From NCBI GenBank assembly GCA_015060445.1, contig SUYL01000046.1, forward strand, positions 1 to 61,847: a stretch of 61,847 nt of DNA, written 5' to 3'. This stretch comes from Bacteroidales bacterium (GTDB taxonomy: Bacteria; Bacteroidota; Bacteroidia; Bacteroidales; UBA932). The notes under the pieces are model-generated. The model did no database searches and was not told the DNA's origin. It saw nothing but the letters and a program-made list of their open reading frames with translations. Every line of letters begins with the position of its first letter. Within the stretch, counting starts at the first letter, position 1. The position numbers were made by a program, and so were the translations under genes. Positions 3,318 to 49,089 of the stretch are shown one piece after another.

Positions 3318-3322
3318 AAAAA

Positions 3323-3419
3323 GGGTAAGCTTAATATATCGCACCGCTACAACCGCATACCCTTGCTGCCTTCCGGCCCTGGGGGAGTTTTGCAGGAGCT
3401 GGTCGTATATGACTTACCC
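3323..3419 (-). ncRNA. ffs: Signal recognition particle RNA, small bacterial type (4.5S)
   Basis: The minus strand carries the invariant SRP domain IV segment AGGGCCGGAAGGCAGCAAGG in a hairpin, including the GGAA tetraloop and the symmetric loop bound by the Ffh M domain. The ends GGGTAAG (3413-3419) and CTTACCC (3323-3329) pair to close a rod of about 97 nt. A run of T follows the 3' end on the minus strand. This is the short form without the Alu domain. The protein partner Ffh is encoded at 59344-60690. Ends are set from pairing and from the promoter, and are good to about 2 nt. Confidence 0.93.
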
Positions 3420-3424
3420 GGGCA

Positions 3425-3455
3425 CAAAGGTAAGAAAATTTATTAATATCCCAAA
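3425..3455 (-). promoter_or_regulatory. Promoter of the SRP RNA gene
   Basis: On the minus strand a TTTG (-33 box, 3452-3455) is separated by exactly 19 nt from TACCTTTG (-7 box, 3425-3432). This is the Bacteroidetes consensus. The RNA's first paired base is 3419, six bases beyond the box. This gives an internal ruler for transcript starts elsewhere in the window. Confidence 0.85.
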
Positions 3456-10482: not shown

Positions 10483-10507
10483 CCCCGTTAGAGTATTTCT
10501 AACGGGG
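10483..10507 (+). terminator. Terminator hairpin after mtaB
   Basis: Perfect 10-bp stem CCCCGTTAGA (10483-10492) / TCTAACGGGG (10498-10507) with a 5-nt loop, followed by AGCATTTTTTTG. It lies 8 bases after the mtaB stop. Confidence 0.85.
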
Positions 10508-10607
10508 AGCATTTTTTTGTGGCGCTGGGGAACGCAGACGGGCAGATTTGTTCCCCGAGAGCATTTTTTGTGGTGTTGGGGAACGCAGACGGGCAGATTT
10601 GTTCCCC
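10508..10607. repeat. Two tandem 51-bp hairpin repeats (repeat locus 1)
   Basis: GGGGAAC occurs at 10527 and 10578, exactly 51 apart. In each unit GGGGAAC and GTTCCCC enclose the same 16-nt spacer (gcagacgggcagattt), and the linker is 21 nt containing a T-run. Sequence resembling one more linker (GAGCATTTTTTTGTGG) precedes the first unit, next to the mtaB terminator. It lies between convergent mtaB and the FAD dehydrogenase. It matches loci at 11480, 31523 and 48124 in architecture. Confidence 0.85.
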
Positions 10608-10621
10608 GGGTGGCAGTAGGG

Positions 10622-12349
10622 TTACTCTAAGGGGGTGCCGCCGGCAATCTTCATGGCGCAGTTAACTCCGTCCAGTGCAGATGAGACAATTCCCCCGGCG
10701 TATCCTGCCCCTTCTCCACAAGGGTAGATGCCTGGAAGATCCAGATGCTGAAGGGTTTCCTTGTCTCTTGGTATCCTTACTGGGGATGAGGTCCTGGATT
10801 CAACTGCCAGCAAAAGTGCCTTATTTGTATAGTATCCCCTCATTTTCTTGTTGAACTCCGGGAATGCTTTCTGGAGGCGGGTTGCTACAAAAGGAGGGAG
10901 CAGTTCATGCAGCGGGGCAGGGTAGGCCCCCGGTTTGTATGATGTCTCCGGAAGGTCTTTGGAAACGGTACCTTTGCAGAAATCCTCCATCCTCTGGGCC
11001 GGTGCCTTTATGCTGTTGCTGTATTCAAAGAGTTTCTTCTCTACTGATTGCTGGAATCTGAGTACCTGTAGTGGACCGAACTCTGCAAATTCAGGTACAT
11101 CTTCCGGGTTTACCTGTACTACAACTCCAGCATTTGCCCATTTTGAGTTGCGGGCAGAATTGCTCATTCCGTTGAGCACCATCTCCCCCCGGTCTGTTGC
11201 TGCCGGAACAAGAATTCCACCAGGGCACATGCAGAATGAAAATACTCCTCGCCCATCAACCTGTGTAACAAGGGAGTATTCTGCAGTAGGGAGATATGGC
11301 TGGTATTTCCCGTGGTACTGGATGTTGTTTATGAGTGTTTGCGGATGCTCTACACGCACTCCCAAAGCAAATCCTTTTGGCTCAATTGTCCACCCTTTTG
11401 CATGGAACAGTTCGTAGATGTCCCTGGCCGAGTGTCCGGTAGCAAGTATGATATTCTTTGCAGAATATGCTTTTCTTCCCGACAAATTCCCATTTTGTCC
11501 ACAAACGGGTGCCTCACCGTGGAGGGAAGTGCCAATTTGCGAATTTTGTCCACAAATGGATACCTCTCCGTGGACAGAGGTGCCTCCGTGGGCAGAAGTG
11601 TTTCCGGGGACAGAGGTGCCTCCGGGGATGGAAGTGCTGTCGGGAGTGTTGGAATCCTCAACAATTGCCTCCCAGCCGGTGGGGGTTTGGGTAAAATCCA
11701 CCACATGGGAGTTGAAATGTACCTGGCCGCCATGTGCTATGATGCAATTGCGCATATTTTCAATTACACGGGGGAGTTTGTCACTTCCAATGTGGGCGTG
11801 GGATTCTATTAGTATGGCGGGATCTGCCCCAAAATGTACGAACATATGGAGGATTTCCCTTATGTCTCCTTTTTTTGTGGAGCGGGTGTAGAGTTTGCCG
11901 TCGGAGAAGGTGCCGGCTCCACCCTCACCAAAGCAATAGTTTGAGTTGGGGTTGACAATCTGCTCTTTTGAGAGTTTGGCCATATCAAATTTGCGCTGGT
12001 GGACATCTTTTCCCCTCTCAAGAATTATTGGTTTGAGGCCAAGTTGTACCAGTTTTAGAGCTGCAAAGAGTCCTGCAGGTCCGCATCCTACCACAATTAC
12101 AGGCTCTGCATTGTGTACATCCTTGAATTCCTGAAGTTTGTATGGTTCAATTGGCTCCATTCCCCTTAGGGCTACATTAACTCTGTACCTGTATTTTATC
12201 TCCCCACCTCTGGCATCGAGTGAGCGTTTCCTTACCTCGTGAGAAATTACAGCACCCGGCCTTGCCCTGAGTACTTTTTCGCATGCTGCAACTATGTCTT
12301 TTTCTGTAGGATTGAACTTCGCAGGAAATACAACTTCTACCTCTTTCAT
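10622..12349 (-). CDS. FAD-dependent dehydrogenase (COG2509 family) with an in-frame repeat insert
   Basis: 575 residues. An N-terminal region of about 80 residues is followed by a Rossmann FAD-binding motif VVGCGPAGLFAALKL at about 87-101. GEGGAGTFSDGKLYTR follows, then NIILATGHSARD, and a C-terminal FAD motif GIYPCGEGAGYAGGIVSSA. This is the uncharacterised COG2509 dehydrogenase family; substrate unknown. Residues about 233-290 are a low-complexity insert (TSVPGN, TSVHGE, SICGQN types) encoded by 51-bp repeats. It sits in a loop between a beta strand and the conserved AYSAKNIILATG segment, so the enzyme may still fold. Transcribed convergently with mtaB and in the same direction as tsaD, 85 bases downstream of it. 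Confidence 0.85.
   Translation of the reverse strand: MKEVEVVFPAKFNPTEKDIVAACEKVLRARPGAVISHEVRKRSLDARGGEIKYRYRVNVALRGMEPIEPYKLQEFKDVHNAEPVIVVGCGPAGLFAALKLVQLGLKPIILERGKDVHQRKFDMAKLSKEQIVNPNSNYCFGEGGAGTFSDGKLYTRSTKKGDIREILHMFVHFGADPAILIESHAHIGSDKLPRVIENMRNCIIAHGGQVHFNSHVVDFTQTPTGWEAIVEDSNTPDSTSIPGGTSVPGNTSAHGGTSVHGEVSICGQNSQIGTSLHGEAPVCGQNGNLSGRKAYSAKNIILATGHSARDIYELFHAKGWTIEPKGFALGVRVEHPQTLINNIQYHGKYQPYLPTAEYSLVTQVDGRGVFSFCMCPGGILVPAATDRGEMVLNGMSNSARNSKWANAGVVVQVNPEDVPEFAEFGPLQVLRFQQSVEKKLFEYSNSIKAPAQRMEDFCKGTVSKDLPETSYKPGAYPAPLHELLPPFVATRLQKAFPEFNKKMRGYYTNKALLLAVESRTSSPVRIPRDKETLQHLDLPGIYPCGEGAGYAGGIVSSALDGVNCAMKIAGGTPLE
11480..11653 (-). repeat. Repeat array inside the FAD dehydrogenase gene (repeat locus 2)
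   Basis: TTTTGTCCACAAA occurs at 11493 and 11544, exactly 51 bases (17 codons) apart. On the minus strand GTCCAC and GTGGAC enclose a 16-nt spacer (ggagaggtatccattt), the same arm-spacer plan as the intergenic arrays. A second unit has CTCCAC/GTGGAC. Upstream in the protein, shorter 18-bp repeats encode TSxxGG-type hexapeptides. Confidence 0.8.
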
Positions 12350-23590: not shown

Positions 23591-23624
23591 AAGTCGGTCC
23601 CCGAGTTAAGTCGGGGACCGACTT
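23591..23624. repeat. Paired AAAGTCGGT palindromes forming a 14-bp hairpin
   Basis: AAGTCGGTCCCCGA (23591-23604) and TCGGGGACCGACTT (23611-23624) are perfect complements around a 6-nt loop. The structure reads as two head-to-head copies of the 19-bp palindrome seen at 8788 and 55233. It sits between tldD and pmbA and may weaken read-through. Confidence 0.8.
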
Positions 23625-31470: not shown

Positions 31471-31522
31471 CTAAGAATTGTGCTCAATTGAAAGTCATAT
31501 GTGGGGCCTTGCTGTTGCTTCT

Positions 31523-31705
31523 GTCCCCGTTTGGGGTATCTTTTCGGGAGGAGTGACTGCTGGAGGATGCTTTTCTCCCCGAATGGGGTATCTTTTGGGG
31601 AGGAGTGACTGCTGGAAATTGCTTTTCTCCCCGTATTGGGGTATCTTTTGGGGAGGAATGTCTGCTGGGGCTGCATTTCTCCCCGAATGGGGTATCTTGG
31701 CAGAA
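31523..31705. repeat. Four tandem 52-bp hairpin repeats (repeat locus 3)
   Basis: Left arms begin at 31523, 31575, 31627 and 31679, exactly 52 apart. The two central units have perfect arms CTCCCC / GGGGAG. The spacer is gaatggggtatctttt (16 nt) in the second unit and one base longer in the third. The first unit has one arm mismatch and the last is truncated. This array fills most of the ~445-base gene-free stretch between the PqqD-like gene and the nucleotidyltransferase gene. A G-run (9 G) follows near 31722. Confidence 0.88.
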
Positions 31706-35473: not shown

Positions 35474-35917
35474 ATGAAAATAATCCCTAATGACATATTT
35501 TTTGCCCAGATAGAATCTGAATTGGCTGCCGGCAGGAGTGTATCTTTTAAAGTCAAAGGAAATTCCATGTTCCCTTTTTTGCGTAACGGCAAGGATACCG
35601 TTCATGTATCACCGGTAAAACGGCAACCGGTTGCAGGAGATGTTGTATTGTTCAAATACAAAGGACATCATGTACTCCATAGAATCATTAAAATTGAGGG
35701 AGACATTCATGTTATTCAGGGAGACGGAATTTATGCTTCCCAAGAGTGCTGCGGTAAAGAGGATATTGTAGGGTTGGTTACCCATATTTCCAGAAATGGT
35801 GGAGAACCTTTTTCCGTTGATTCCTTCTGTTGGCGGTTATGTTCCCAATTGTGGAGTATCTTTTCTTTTGCCAGAAGGTATCTGCTTATTTTTTTACGTT
35901 GTCTTTTTGTACAATAG
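35474..35917 (+). CDS. S24/S26 signal-peptidase-like protein, His-type
   Basis: 147 residues from the ATG at 35474 (MKIIPNDIFFAQIE), one base after the kinase stop. The nucleophile serine is in SFKVKGNSMFPFLRNGKD. The second catalytic position reads GHHVLHRIIKIEGD, that is a His before Arg as in the SipW/ER-type peptidases rather than the Lys of ordinary bacterial SPase I. The C-terminus (FSFARRYLLIFLRCLFVQ) is one hydrophobic segment, so it is a C-tail-anchored protein. The last six codons are inside the left arm of a 25-bp inverted repeat. Confidence 0.78.
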   Translation: MKIIPNDIFFAQIESELAAGRSVSFKVKGNSMFPFLRNGKDTVHVSPVKRQPVAGDVVLFKYKGHHVLHRIIKIEGDIHVIQGDGIYASQECCGKEDIVGLVTHISRNGGEPFSVDSFCWRLCSQLWSIFSFARRYLLIFLRCLFVQ

Positions 35918-36020
35918 TCTCATTATAAGTGAGTTAAAAAAACAAGAGTGATGGTAACCCATCACTCTTGTTTTATAAGTTATTAATATTCAGTTTATTG
36001 TACAAAAAGACAACGTAAAA
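35892..36020. repeat. 25-bp perfect inverted repeat between the island and the V-ATPase operon
   Basis: Bases 35892-35916 are the exact reverse complement of 35996-36020. The left arm contains the last codons and two bases of the stop codon of the signal-peptidase-like gene. The right arm ends directly at the stop codon of atpK. The 79 bases between hold a terminator hairpin. Confidence 0.9.
35941..35972. terminator. Bidirectional terminator between the peptidase gene and atpK
   Basis: 14-bp arms AACAAGAGTGATGG (35941-35954) and CCATCACTCTTGTT (35959-35972), with a 4-nt loop and flanking A- and T-runs. Confidence 0.85.
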
Positions 36021-47608: not shown

Positions 47609-48022
47609 TTACATTTTTGACGGATCCTCGCAAAGTTCTGTAAGAACGCCGCAGGTTGATTTTGGATGAAGGAATGCAATGTTCAAACCCTCAGCACCTT
47701 TTCTAGGGGCTTTGTCAATAAGTTGAACCTCTTTGGCAGCCAACTCATCAAGAGATGCCTGTACGCCGTTTGTTGCAAATGCAATGTGGTGTACGCCCTC
47801 ACCTTTCTTCTCAATGAATTTTGCAATTGTACCCTCTGGAGATGTGCTCTCAAGAAGTTCAAGTTTGGTCTGTCCAATCTTGAAGAAAGCGGTTTTAACT
47901 TTCTGGTCTGCTACTTCCTCAATTGCGTAGCATTTCAAACCAAGTTTCTCCTCATAATAAGGAATGGCAGTCTCCAAAGATTTAACTGCAATGCCAATGT
48001 GCTCAATATGTGTTAGTTCCAT
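47609..48022 (-). CDS. mce: Methylmalonyl-CoA epimerase
   Basis: 137 residues, normal for the family. It interconverts (R)- and (S)-methylmalonyl-CoA in the succinate-propionate pathway. Glyoxalase-fold metal ligands are in LTHIEHIGIAVKSLE, GEGVHHIAFATNGV and the C-terminal GVLTELCE. First gene of the operon. Its promoter box TACATTTG is at 48066-48073 (minus). Confidence 0.95.
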   Translation of the reverse strand: MELTHIEHIGIAVKSLETAIPYYEEKLGLKCYAIEEVADQKVKTAFFKIGQTKLELLESTSPEGTIAKFIEKKGEGVHHIAFATNGVQASLDELAAKEVQLIDKAPRKGAEGLNIAFLHPKSTCGVLTELCEDPSKM

Positions 48023-48073: not shown

Positions 48074-48123
48074 ATAAATATTCAAACCTTTTCCCAAAAA
48101 ACACAATTAAATTTCTCCCGACA

Positions 48124-48255
48124 GGGGAACATTTTCAGACACTTTTGTTCCTCGAGGTGGATTTTTCTGCGGTAGGGGAACATTTTCAGACACTTTTGTC
48201 CCCCGAGGCAACATTTTTCTTCGTAGGGGAACATTTCGGGGTATTTTTGTTCCCC
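48124..48255. repeat. Three tandem 51-bp hairpin repeats (repeat locus 4)
   Basis: GGGGAAC starts at 48124, 48175 and 48226, exactly 51 apart. Each unit has GGGGAAC, a 16-nt spacer (attttcagacactttt twice, then atttcggggtattttt), and a right arm GTTCCTC, GTCCCCC or GTTCCCC. The linkers are 21 nt and contain a T-run (GAGGnnnnATTTTTCTnCGTA type). It takes up most of the ~320-base gene-free stretch between mce and yebC. Confidence 0.9.
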
Positions 48256-48273
48256 GGAGAGGGGTAGTTATAA

Positions 48274-48308
48274 AAAAAGAGTCTGGGATAGGATCCCGGA
48301 CTCTTTTT
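48274..48308 (-). terminator. Terminator after yebC
   Basis: A 16-bp stem with one G-U pair: AAAAAGAGTCTGGGAT (48274-48289) and ATCCCGGACTCTTTTT (48293-48308), with a 3-nt loop and T-run. It lies about 35 bases after the yebC stop. Confidence 0.88.
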
Positions 48309-48341
48309 CAGTTGTATGCTGATTCAATTGTATGCTGAGTT

Positions 48342-49070
48342 TTACTCAGACATGTCCATAGTGTGGTACACGTTCTGAACATCGTCATCTTCCTCAAGTT
48401 TGGCAAGAAGTTTCTCAACATCTGCCTTCTCCTCTGCAGAGAGTTTCTTTGGCTCTGAGGTAGGGATTCTTTCAAACTGACCCGATTTTATTTCAAATGT
48501 GTTTGCCTCAAGGTATTTCTGGATTTCTCCGAAAGATTCAAATGCACCGTATATGGTAATAGTATTCTCTTCCTCGTCTCTAAAAATCTCATCTACTCCG
48601 TAGTCAATCATCTCAAGTTCCAGCTCTTCCATATCCAGACCCTCTTTGTTCACAACATTGAACACACATTTGCGCTCGAACATGAAGTCAACAGAACCGG
48701 ATGTACCCAATGAACCGCCAAATTTGTTGAAGTAACTTCTTACGTTTGCTACAGTCCTGTTGTTGTTGTCTGTTGCTGTCTCTACAAGCACTGCAATTCC
48801 GTGAGGTGCGTAACCTTCGTAAACAATCTCCTTATAATCTGCTGTGTCTTTCTCAACTGCACGTTTGATAGCCCTGTCAATGTTGTCTTTAGGCATATTC
48901 TCACTTTTTGCAGTCTGGATGAGAGTACGGAGTCTTGGGTTAGTGTCGGGATCCGGACCACCTGATTTTGCACAAATGGTTATCTCCTTGCCAAGTCTTG
49001 TAAATACGCGGGCCATATTTCCCCAGCGTTTCAGTTTTCTCTCTTTTCTGAACTCAAATGCTCTTCCCAT
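48342..49070 (-). CDS. yebC: YebC/PmpR family DNA- or ribosome-associated regulator
   Basis: About 242 residues from the ATG at 49070 (MGRAFEFRKERKLKRWGNMA). A longer frame to 49088 lacks a fitting N-terminus. The family regions GPDPDTNPRLRTLIQTAKSE, MPKDNIDRAIKRAVEK and YEGYAPHGIAVLVETATDNN are intact. Members are described as transcription regulators or, more recently, as factors relieving ribosome stalling. A strong hairpin precedes it. Confidence 0.93.
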   Translation of the reverse strand: MGRAFEFRKERKLKRWGNMARVFTRLGKEITICAKSGGPDPDTNPRLRTLIQTAKSENMPKDNIDRAIKRAVEKDTADYKEIVYEGYAPHGIAVLVETATDNNNRTVANVRSYFNKFGGSLGTSGSVDFMFERKCVFNVVNKEGLDMEELELEMIDYGVDEIFRDEEENTITIYGAFESFGEIQKYLEANTFEIKSGQFERIPTSEPKKLSAEEKADVEKLLAKLEEDDDVQNVYHTMDMSE

Positions 49071-49089
49071 ATTGTCTGTTGTTTTCAAT

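Follow-up and report, generated by a model that had tools for sequence, protein, structure and literature searches.

The window, i.e. the whole stretch of 61,847 bp analysed here, is contig C36 of a 2.18-Mb genome in 67 contigs that is 87% complete. The array under study (array D) and its two neighbouring genes are listed in Table 1 together with the other tandem arrays. The first-pass annotation had described array D as three units with a 51-bp period, and the units indeed start at 48124, 48175 and 48226, a spacing of exactly 51 bp. Its count of four window loci with tandem 51- or 52-bp units is likewise correct, as arrays A, B and D have a period of 51 bp and array C one of 52 bp. Within one window array the units match at 85-94%. 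The 'GGGGTATnTTTT' loop, which was said to be shared, is found in the third D unit and at locus C but not in D units 1 and 2, nor in arrays A and B.

Table 1. Array D, its neighbours and the other tandem arrays of the window.
Feature	Positions	Strand	Remarks
Array A	10507..10608	+	two alpha units; hairpins 10527-10556 and 10578-10607, 51 bp apart
Array B	11497..11575	.	two GTCCAC-16-GTGGA(G/C) hairpins; 11497-11524 and 11548-11575, 51 bp apart
Array C	31514..31698	+	52-bp period, 3.6 units, CTCCCC/GGGGAG arms, 16-base loop
Glyoxalase-superfamily gene	47609..48022	-	left neighbour of array D
Word TCCCGACA	48116..48123	+	abuts first arm of array D; over-represented in window and genome
Unit D1	48124..48174	+	7-16-7 hairpin (48124-48153) and 21-bp linker; alpha family, 46.8 bits
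Unit D2	48175..48225	+	alpha family, 43.7 bits
Unit D3, hairpin	48226..48255	+	perfect 8-bp arms, linker unrepeated; 34.5 bits
yebC/TACO1 gene	48342..49088	-	right neighbour of array D

When single units were folded as single-stranded DNA (n = 4), two of them beat most shuffles (8/200 and 2/200 shuffles as good) while the other two were not better (81/200 and 19/200). The whole 132-nt array D folds better than shuffles on either strand, with 4/200 and 1/200 as good. The nearest named relatives of YebC are from Bacteroidales, 75% and 77% identical at best, and goat-cecum and sheep-rectum genomes are among these.

Array A lies between a radical-SAM gene and the gene of a FAD-dependent oxidoreductase (10622-12349, minus strand). 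Array B is located within the open frame of the latter, where it is followed by 18-bp repeats up to 11637. Arrays A and D form one family (alpha) with the GGGCAC arrays found genome-wide, and array B represents a second one (GTCCAC, beta). In the case of array C, the alpha model gave 6.5 bits (E 4.6) and the locus was set apart; no partner gene was identified for it and its exact unit pattern is absent from the 260 loci examined.

The word next to array D belongs to a wider pattern. TCCCGAC has 40 sites in the window, for instance at 1155, 5183, 11477, 43326 and 48116, and 25 copies of TCCCGACA, partly in inverted pairs, are distributed over both strands where 0.83 would be expected. TTCCCGACA is present in 498 genome copies compared to 30 for its reversed control; some other species of this genus show a comparable enrichment and others do not. 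The word resembles an uptake-signal or HIP1-like word. TTCCCGACA was considered as an array-specific boundary and rejected, being an over-represented genomic word instead; near array edges it is in modest excess (10/49 within 100 bp vs 6.5% expected). The window also holds a 130-bp MITE-like element (35892-36020) with 50-nt inverted arms (82% complementary) around an inner perfect 16-bp hairpin, and similar stretches are seen on many contigs of the relatives G007 and G009.

Repeat families and pairing of the arms

Five genomic sites fit GGGGAAC-N(12 to 20)-GTTCCCC, while its reversed control has 0 occurrences genome-wide; hence the hairpin plan of the window is not due to chance. All five hairpins have 16 bases between the arms, and two of them, on contig C31, are also 51 bp apart. 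A genome-wide, structure-aware search for further copies had been proposed, and it did reveal them. Indeed, a covariance model built on 25 units (R1) gave at least 123 matches at E<=10 and at least 63 at E<=0.001 when the best 150 candidates were scored, both counts being lower bounds in which some matches are the two strands of one hairpin. The 63 matches at E<=0.001 are spread over 22 places and repeat every 51 or 93 bp (51+42), and the arms of the alpha family are GGGGAAC, GGGCAC and variants. Within the genus, 7/39 genomes show alpha matches. Contigs C10, C23 and C31 of the present genome end in alpha arrays.

Complementary arms had been reported with at most one mismatch in most units, which describes the good pairing within the window but is not universal. 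Among 24 distinct alpha units 86.4% of cells pair, yet pair 5:26 is broken in 16/24 units and pair 1:30 in 8/23; furthermore, the arms of L153 are weak (4/7 pairs) and some arrays have no exact 6-base arms. The proposed covariation of the arms was seen between families and is weak within alpha. Between ten arm families, own arms form 6.2/7 Watson-Crick pairs compared to 2.9/7 for swapped arms, and 0/20000 permutations reach this. The units of this test, one from each array, were picked by hand in the 7-16-7 register, which favours pairing. Within alpha, two of five covariation measures are not above shuffles (460/500 and 483/500 reach them) and one pair is mostly broken, as given above. The fixed 16-base loop holds for all five GGGGAAC hairpins but not throughout, since it is 17 bases in a distant subgroup and, by eye, 19 in L173 and ~24 in G063.

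We compiled our own list of 28 arrays in the present genome. ORFs span 4/28 of them, namely a glycerate kinase, a FAD-dependent oxidoreductase, an O6-methylguanine methyltransferase-domain ORF and a helix-hairpin-helix ORF. Copies of the alpha and beta repeats are also found elsewhere in the genome. Two identities were tried and rejected. A structured RNA of known family is not indicated, as Rfam gave no array match at gathering score and some arrays lie inside ORFs. A GTAG-tagged REP does not fit either, GT[AG]G being found near the hairpin foot, in array orientation, in only 7/56 alpha hairpins (the family in which it was counted). The only window match to Rfam at gathering score is a Bacteroidales small SRP RNA at 3319-3426 on the minus strand (RF04183, 107.1 bits).

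HUH/Y1 genes between the arrays

Five diverged members of one protein family are encoded in the present genome, and each of the five genes is flanked on both sides by a repeat of its own type, two of them by 51/52-bp hairpin arrays. P0001, a 339-aa ORF on contig C4, lies between beta arrays with GTCCAC/GTGGAC arms, as in window array B, and the gene at C3:27.6k is flanked by TTGTCAC-16-GTGACAA units of 51 bp. The genes at C3:74.9k, C22 and C27 have other repeats, which are longer at C3:74.9k and C22. Next to the C27 gene there is also a 26-bp tandem repeat (L150:1188-1400, G000:C27), distinct from the repeat common to its flanks. Another observation in the window is a palindrome at 23591-23624 (AAGTCGGTCCCCGAGTT/AAGTCGGGGACCGACTT), like the palindromes flanking another Y1 gene of the same genome (L013:265-1191); it perhaps represents a further, non-tandem REP-like family.

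The other four members are 25-45% identical to P0001. An alignment of 22 proteins (A2; five from the present genome, 15 from the 28 loci of relatives with 13 omitted, plus L188 and L189) shows H83, H85 and Y141 to be invariant in 22/22, corresponding to the HUH motif and the catalytic tyrosine. Pfam Y1_Tnp and NCBIfam REP_Tyr_transpos each match 14/22 members at E<=0.1. For P0001 itself Pfam gave nothing and NCBIfam a weak match (E 0.0024). The matches to solved-structure profiles are weak as well (E 0.12-0.52), five of the six being to chains called transposases. Judged by these sequence features, the family is a divergent branch of the Y1/HUH (IS200-like) nuclease superfamily. Apart from the partial L170, its ORFs are 284-353 aa long. 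Among the 22 aligned proteins there is no conserved W between H85 and Y141, N145 is invariant with the following P not conserved (motif Y..[RMK]N), and the W[QE] and Y..NP motifs of RAYT class 2 are absent. All 12 members of the closer subgroup have [LM]FP near the C-terminus, a sequence which resembles a putative sliding-clamp motif.

Homologs of P0001 were found in 20/61 genomes searched, all 20 among the 37 of the same genus, and 58/295 genomes of the order match the family profile. Among the matches listed, a full-length match is seen only in the present genome and in G063, the rest covering the N-terminal Y1 part. G063 belongs to another genus of the same family, and its long protein lies between 52-bp arrays on both sides. 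The profile also reaches shorter Bacteroidales proteins (best E 7e-18), and 6/10 of those scanned are Pfam Y1_Tnp at E<=0.001.

The association of genes and arrays was then quantified in the genus at 33 HUH loci, five of the present genome and 28 of relatives including the partial L170, after a search with 53 homolog matches. Flanks of 1500 bp show, on one or both sides, lags of 50-53, 91-95 or 101-105 bp at 24/33 loci and no such lag at 9/33; two of the 24 are questionable, C27 with its 26-bp repeat and L159 with its low complexity. In comparison, 3/41 window segments of 1500 bp show any lag and these three hold the arrays described here, and such lags are present at 3/28 loci of shorter Y1-like genes elsewhere in the order, scanned whole. 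The left and right flanks of one gene are alike in 22/33 loci (20 direct, 2 inverted) and show no match in 11/33, in a set of 33 without L157 and L170 and with L188 and L232. Among unlike flank pairs 33/1056 match, the longest (up to 1177 bp) being probably shared neighbourhoods. The arms differ gene by gene (TTGTGCA, TGGTGCA, CATCCAC, GTCCAC, TTGTCAC and others), and the arrays around HUH genes run head to tail instead of forming inverted pairs.

The present assembly, at its 87% completeness, yielded no alpha-type HUH gene. However, alpha has a partner gene in relatives, as indicated by open HUH ORFs between alpha arrays in G007 (C28) and G009 (C57). The first of these lies at the site of array D. 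Indeed, window positions 48102-48327 (226 bp) correspond to 2307 bp on contig C28 of G007, where an open HUH ORF of 304 aa lies between alpha units that all run in one direction, and the 4.7 kb left of the site are 94% identical. The ORF has two in-frame TAA, its own stop and a second one behind. At the same site G006, G016 and G009 have 45, 31 and 81 bp with no array and no gene in the sequence viewed. Among 15 loci compared, the array at the G007 site is the best match for D units 1 and 2 (38/51 and 35/51) but not for D unit 3, with 25/30 compared to 26 for two other loci.

The other sites vary too. A comparison of copy number between strains had been suggested, and array presence differs among relatives at sites D, A, B and the glycerate kinase. 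Array B is common to G007 and the present genome, the G007 stretch matching three times over, and is absent by gap lengths in G006, G009, G016 and G023. Array A is absent in G006 and G023 by the same measure. The glycerate kinase (L015:5028-5410, G000:C31) carries an in-frame hairpin-repeat insert of ~125 codons in an open frame, and the kinase profile resumes behind it; this array is shorter in G007 and G006 and absent, by gap lengths, in G009, G012, G016 and G023.

Relation to known repeat systems

In REP/RAYT systems, as described in PMC6006769 and PMC3116915, hairpin repeats specific to a Y1/HUH gene lie in its flanks and are also dispersed, mostly between genes; a genome has several such families, and every family has a separate gene. 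The arrays studied here are similar to these TnpA-REP 'REPtrons' in that both flanks of the gene carry its repeat (22/33 loci), which has copies elsewhere. They differ in having no conserved GTAG guide, units that follow head to tail with a constant 51/52-bp spacing and do not form inverted pairs (REPIN/BIME), loops of 14-16 bases, and a protein with a long C-terminal part and without the W[QE] and Y..NP motifs.

Another related system is the Bacteroidetes TnpA-Y1 subclass 2.6 (RAYT group 5), whose genes, according to PMC6006769, have 'atypical secondary structures' in their flanks that lack GT[AG]G and recur elsewhere in the genome; a table in that paper gives a median of 179 aa and the motifs WQ and YIH[QN]NP. 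The host group, the repeat-flanked gene without GT[AG]G and the copies elsewhere are the same here, and the two are set apart by protein length and motifs, the present family having 284-353 aa, Y..[RMK]N and no conserved W. Ordered tandem REP arrays (GI-GIII, in which 112 and 72 bp alternate) are described for Pseudomonas fluorescens SBW25 in PMC3116915, as are REPIN clusters next to RAYT genes. Such arrays are an exception among doublets in SBW25, whereas tandem units with 51 and 51+42 periods are the common arrangement in the present genus.

Palindromic repeats lying in frame within ORFs are a feature of the Rickettsia palindromic elements. The in-frame repeats inside ORFs seen here are similar to these by description. 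RPE-4 and RPE-6 are equated in PMC3733652 with CGTC repeats, which that paper describes as mostly head-to-head dimers with no associated transposase gene. REP/RAYT as a kind, the Bacteroidetes subclass 2.6 with atypical repeats and the SBW25 tandem REP arrays are already on record. Among the open-licence papers listed, none describes by title or abstract such arrays with such genes in Bacteroidetes.

Origin and multiplication of the arrays

We propose that a divergent family of Y1/HUH nucleases acting on single-stranded DNA has these arrays as its REP-like partner sequences, a reading to which we give a probability of about 0.77 and which draws on sequence comparison. Binding sites for a protein family and an element that multiplies in tandem had been offered as separate readings at the outset; with HUH/Y1 genes between arrays of their own arms and a presence that varies, the two would hold together, and structured RNA is left without support. 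The statement that no named family fits is right as regards the GTAG guide and inverted pairing but REP/RAYT does fit in plan. The anatomy is that of a REPtron, i.e. a gene with its repeats. We do not file it as a RAYT, since tests for three marks of class 2, the GTAG guide, the inverted pairing and the W/Y motifs, came out negative, but as far as the anatomy goes it would work like one.

In such a system the protein would bind its own hairpin arms where the DNA is single-stranded, which may be at the replication fork. By nicking and rejoining the hairpin it could set 51-nt units beside old ones and seed arrays at new sites, a step modelled on TnpA-REP, for which cutting and rejoining of REPs is described (PMC6006769). 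Recombination between direct flanking arrays would delete the gene and leave a solo array, much as solo LTRs arise. Array D would be a solo array that either has lost its gene in this way or was seeded with no gene involved. Since 51, 42 and 93 can all be divided by three, some genes may tolerate arrays.

The arrays could instead be the ends of a composite mobile element, arrays and HUH gene moving whole in an IS200-like manner, with solo arrays as leftovers that are not mobile alone. The array-gene-array arrangement in G007, missing from three relatives at the same site, would suit this, and direct flanking arrays would permit gene deletion. We nevertheless regard it as unlikely, given that the gene copies are diverged paralogs and not recent, and that 28 arrays are listed in the present genome compared to five HUH genes. 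An IS200/IS605 insertion sequence proper was rejected on the same divergence, the gene copies not being near-identical; in a table of PMC6006769, IS200 transposase genes within one genome are 99.4% identical.

Minisatellite DNA would need no partner protein at all: polymerase slippage would duplicate a hairpin-prone sequence, and genes beside arrays would be coincidence or insertions into repeats. Slippage surely contributes to length changes and could lengthen arrays without a protein, in line with the likeness of units within an array (85-94%) and the fast change in array length, as in the tripled array B region of G007. As the sole explanation it appears very improbable, as it leaves unexplained why one unit family is found at 22 places, why the same period recurs with different arms beside 24/33 homologous loci, and why left and right flanks match. 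Least probable, in our estimate, are functional sites of the host (nucleoid or regulator binding, RNA structures in transcripts) onto which HUH genes land. Such sites would agree with the 24/28 arrays not spanned by an ORF, the covariation of arms between families and the excess of the over-represented word near some array edges. However, arrays are missing at corresponding sites of relatives, some lie inside coding genes, alpha matches are confined to 7/39 genus genomes, and genes with arms of their own are not predicted by a common host factor.

Beyond the partnership of nuclease and repeat, we tentatively consider a maker of bacterial satellite DNA, in which lineage-specific HUH nucleases might cut and rejoin single-stranded DNA and in this way build head-to-tail satellites of 51-nt units from single hairpins. 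Protein and arms would co-diversify into orthogonal pairs, and the satellites would enter metabolic genes as in-frame peptide inserts; this wider proposal is somewhat less likely to be right than wrong.

With many protein-hairpin pairs of different arms on one plan in one genus, the system bears on how REP-type repeats multiply, and given these pairs arm recognition is testable by swapping. Furthermore, one corresponding site offers the empty, solo-array and array-gene-array states. The repeats of this lineage are, moreover, uniform satellites and enter genes in frame.
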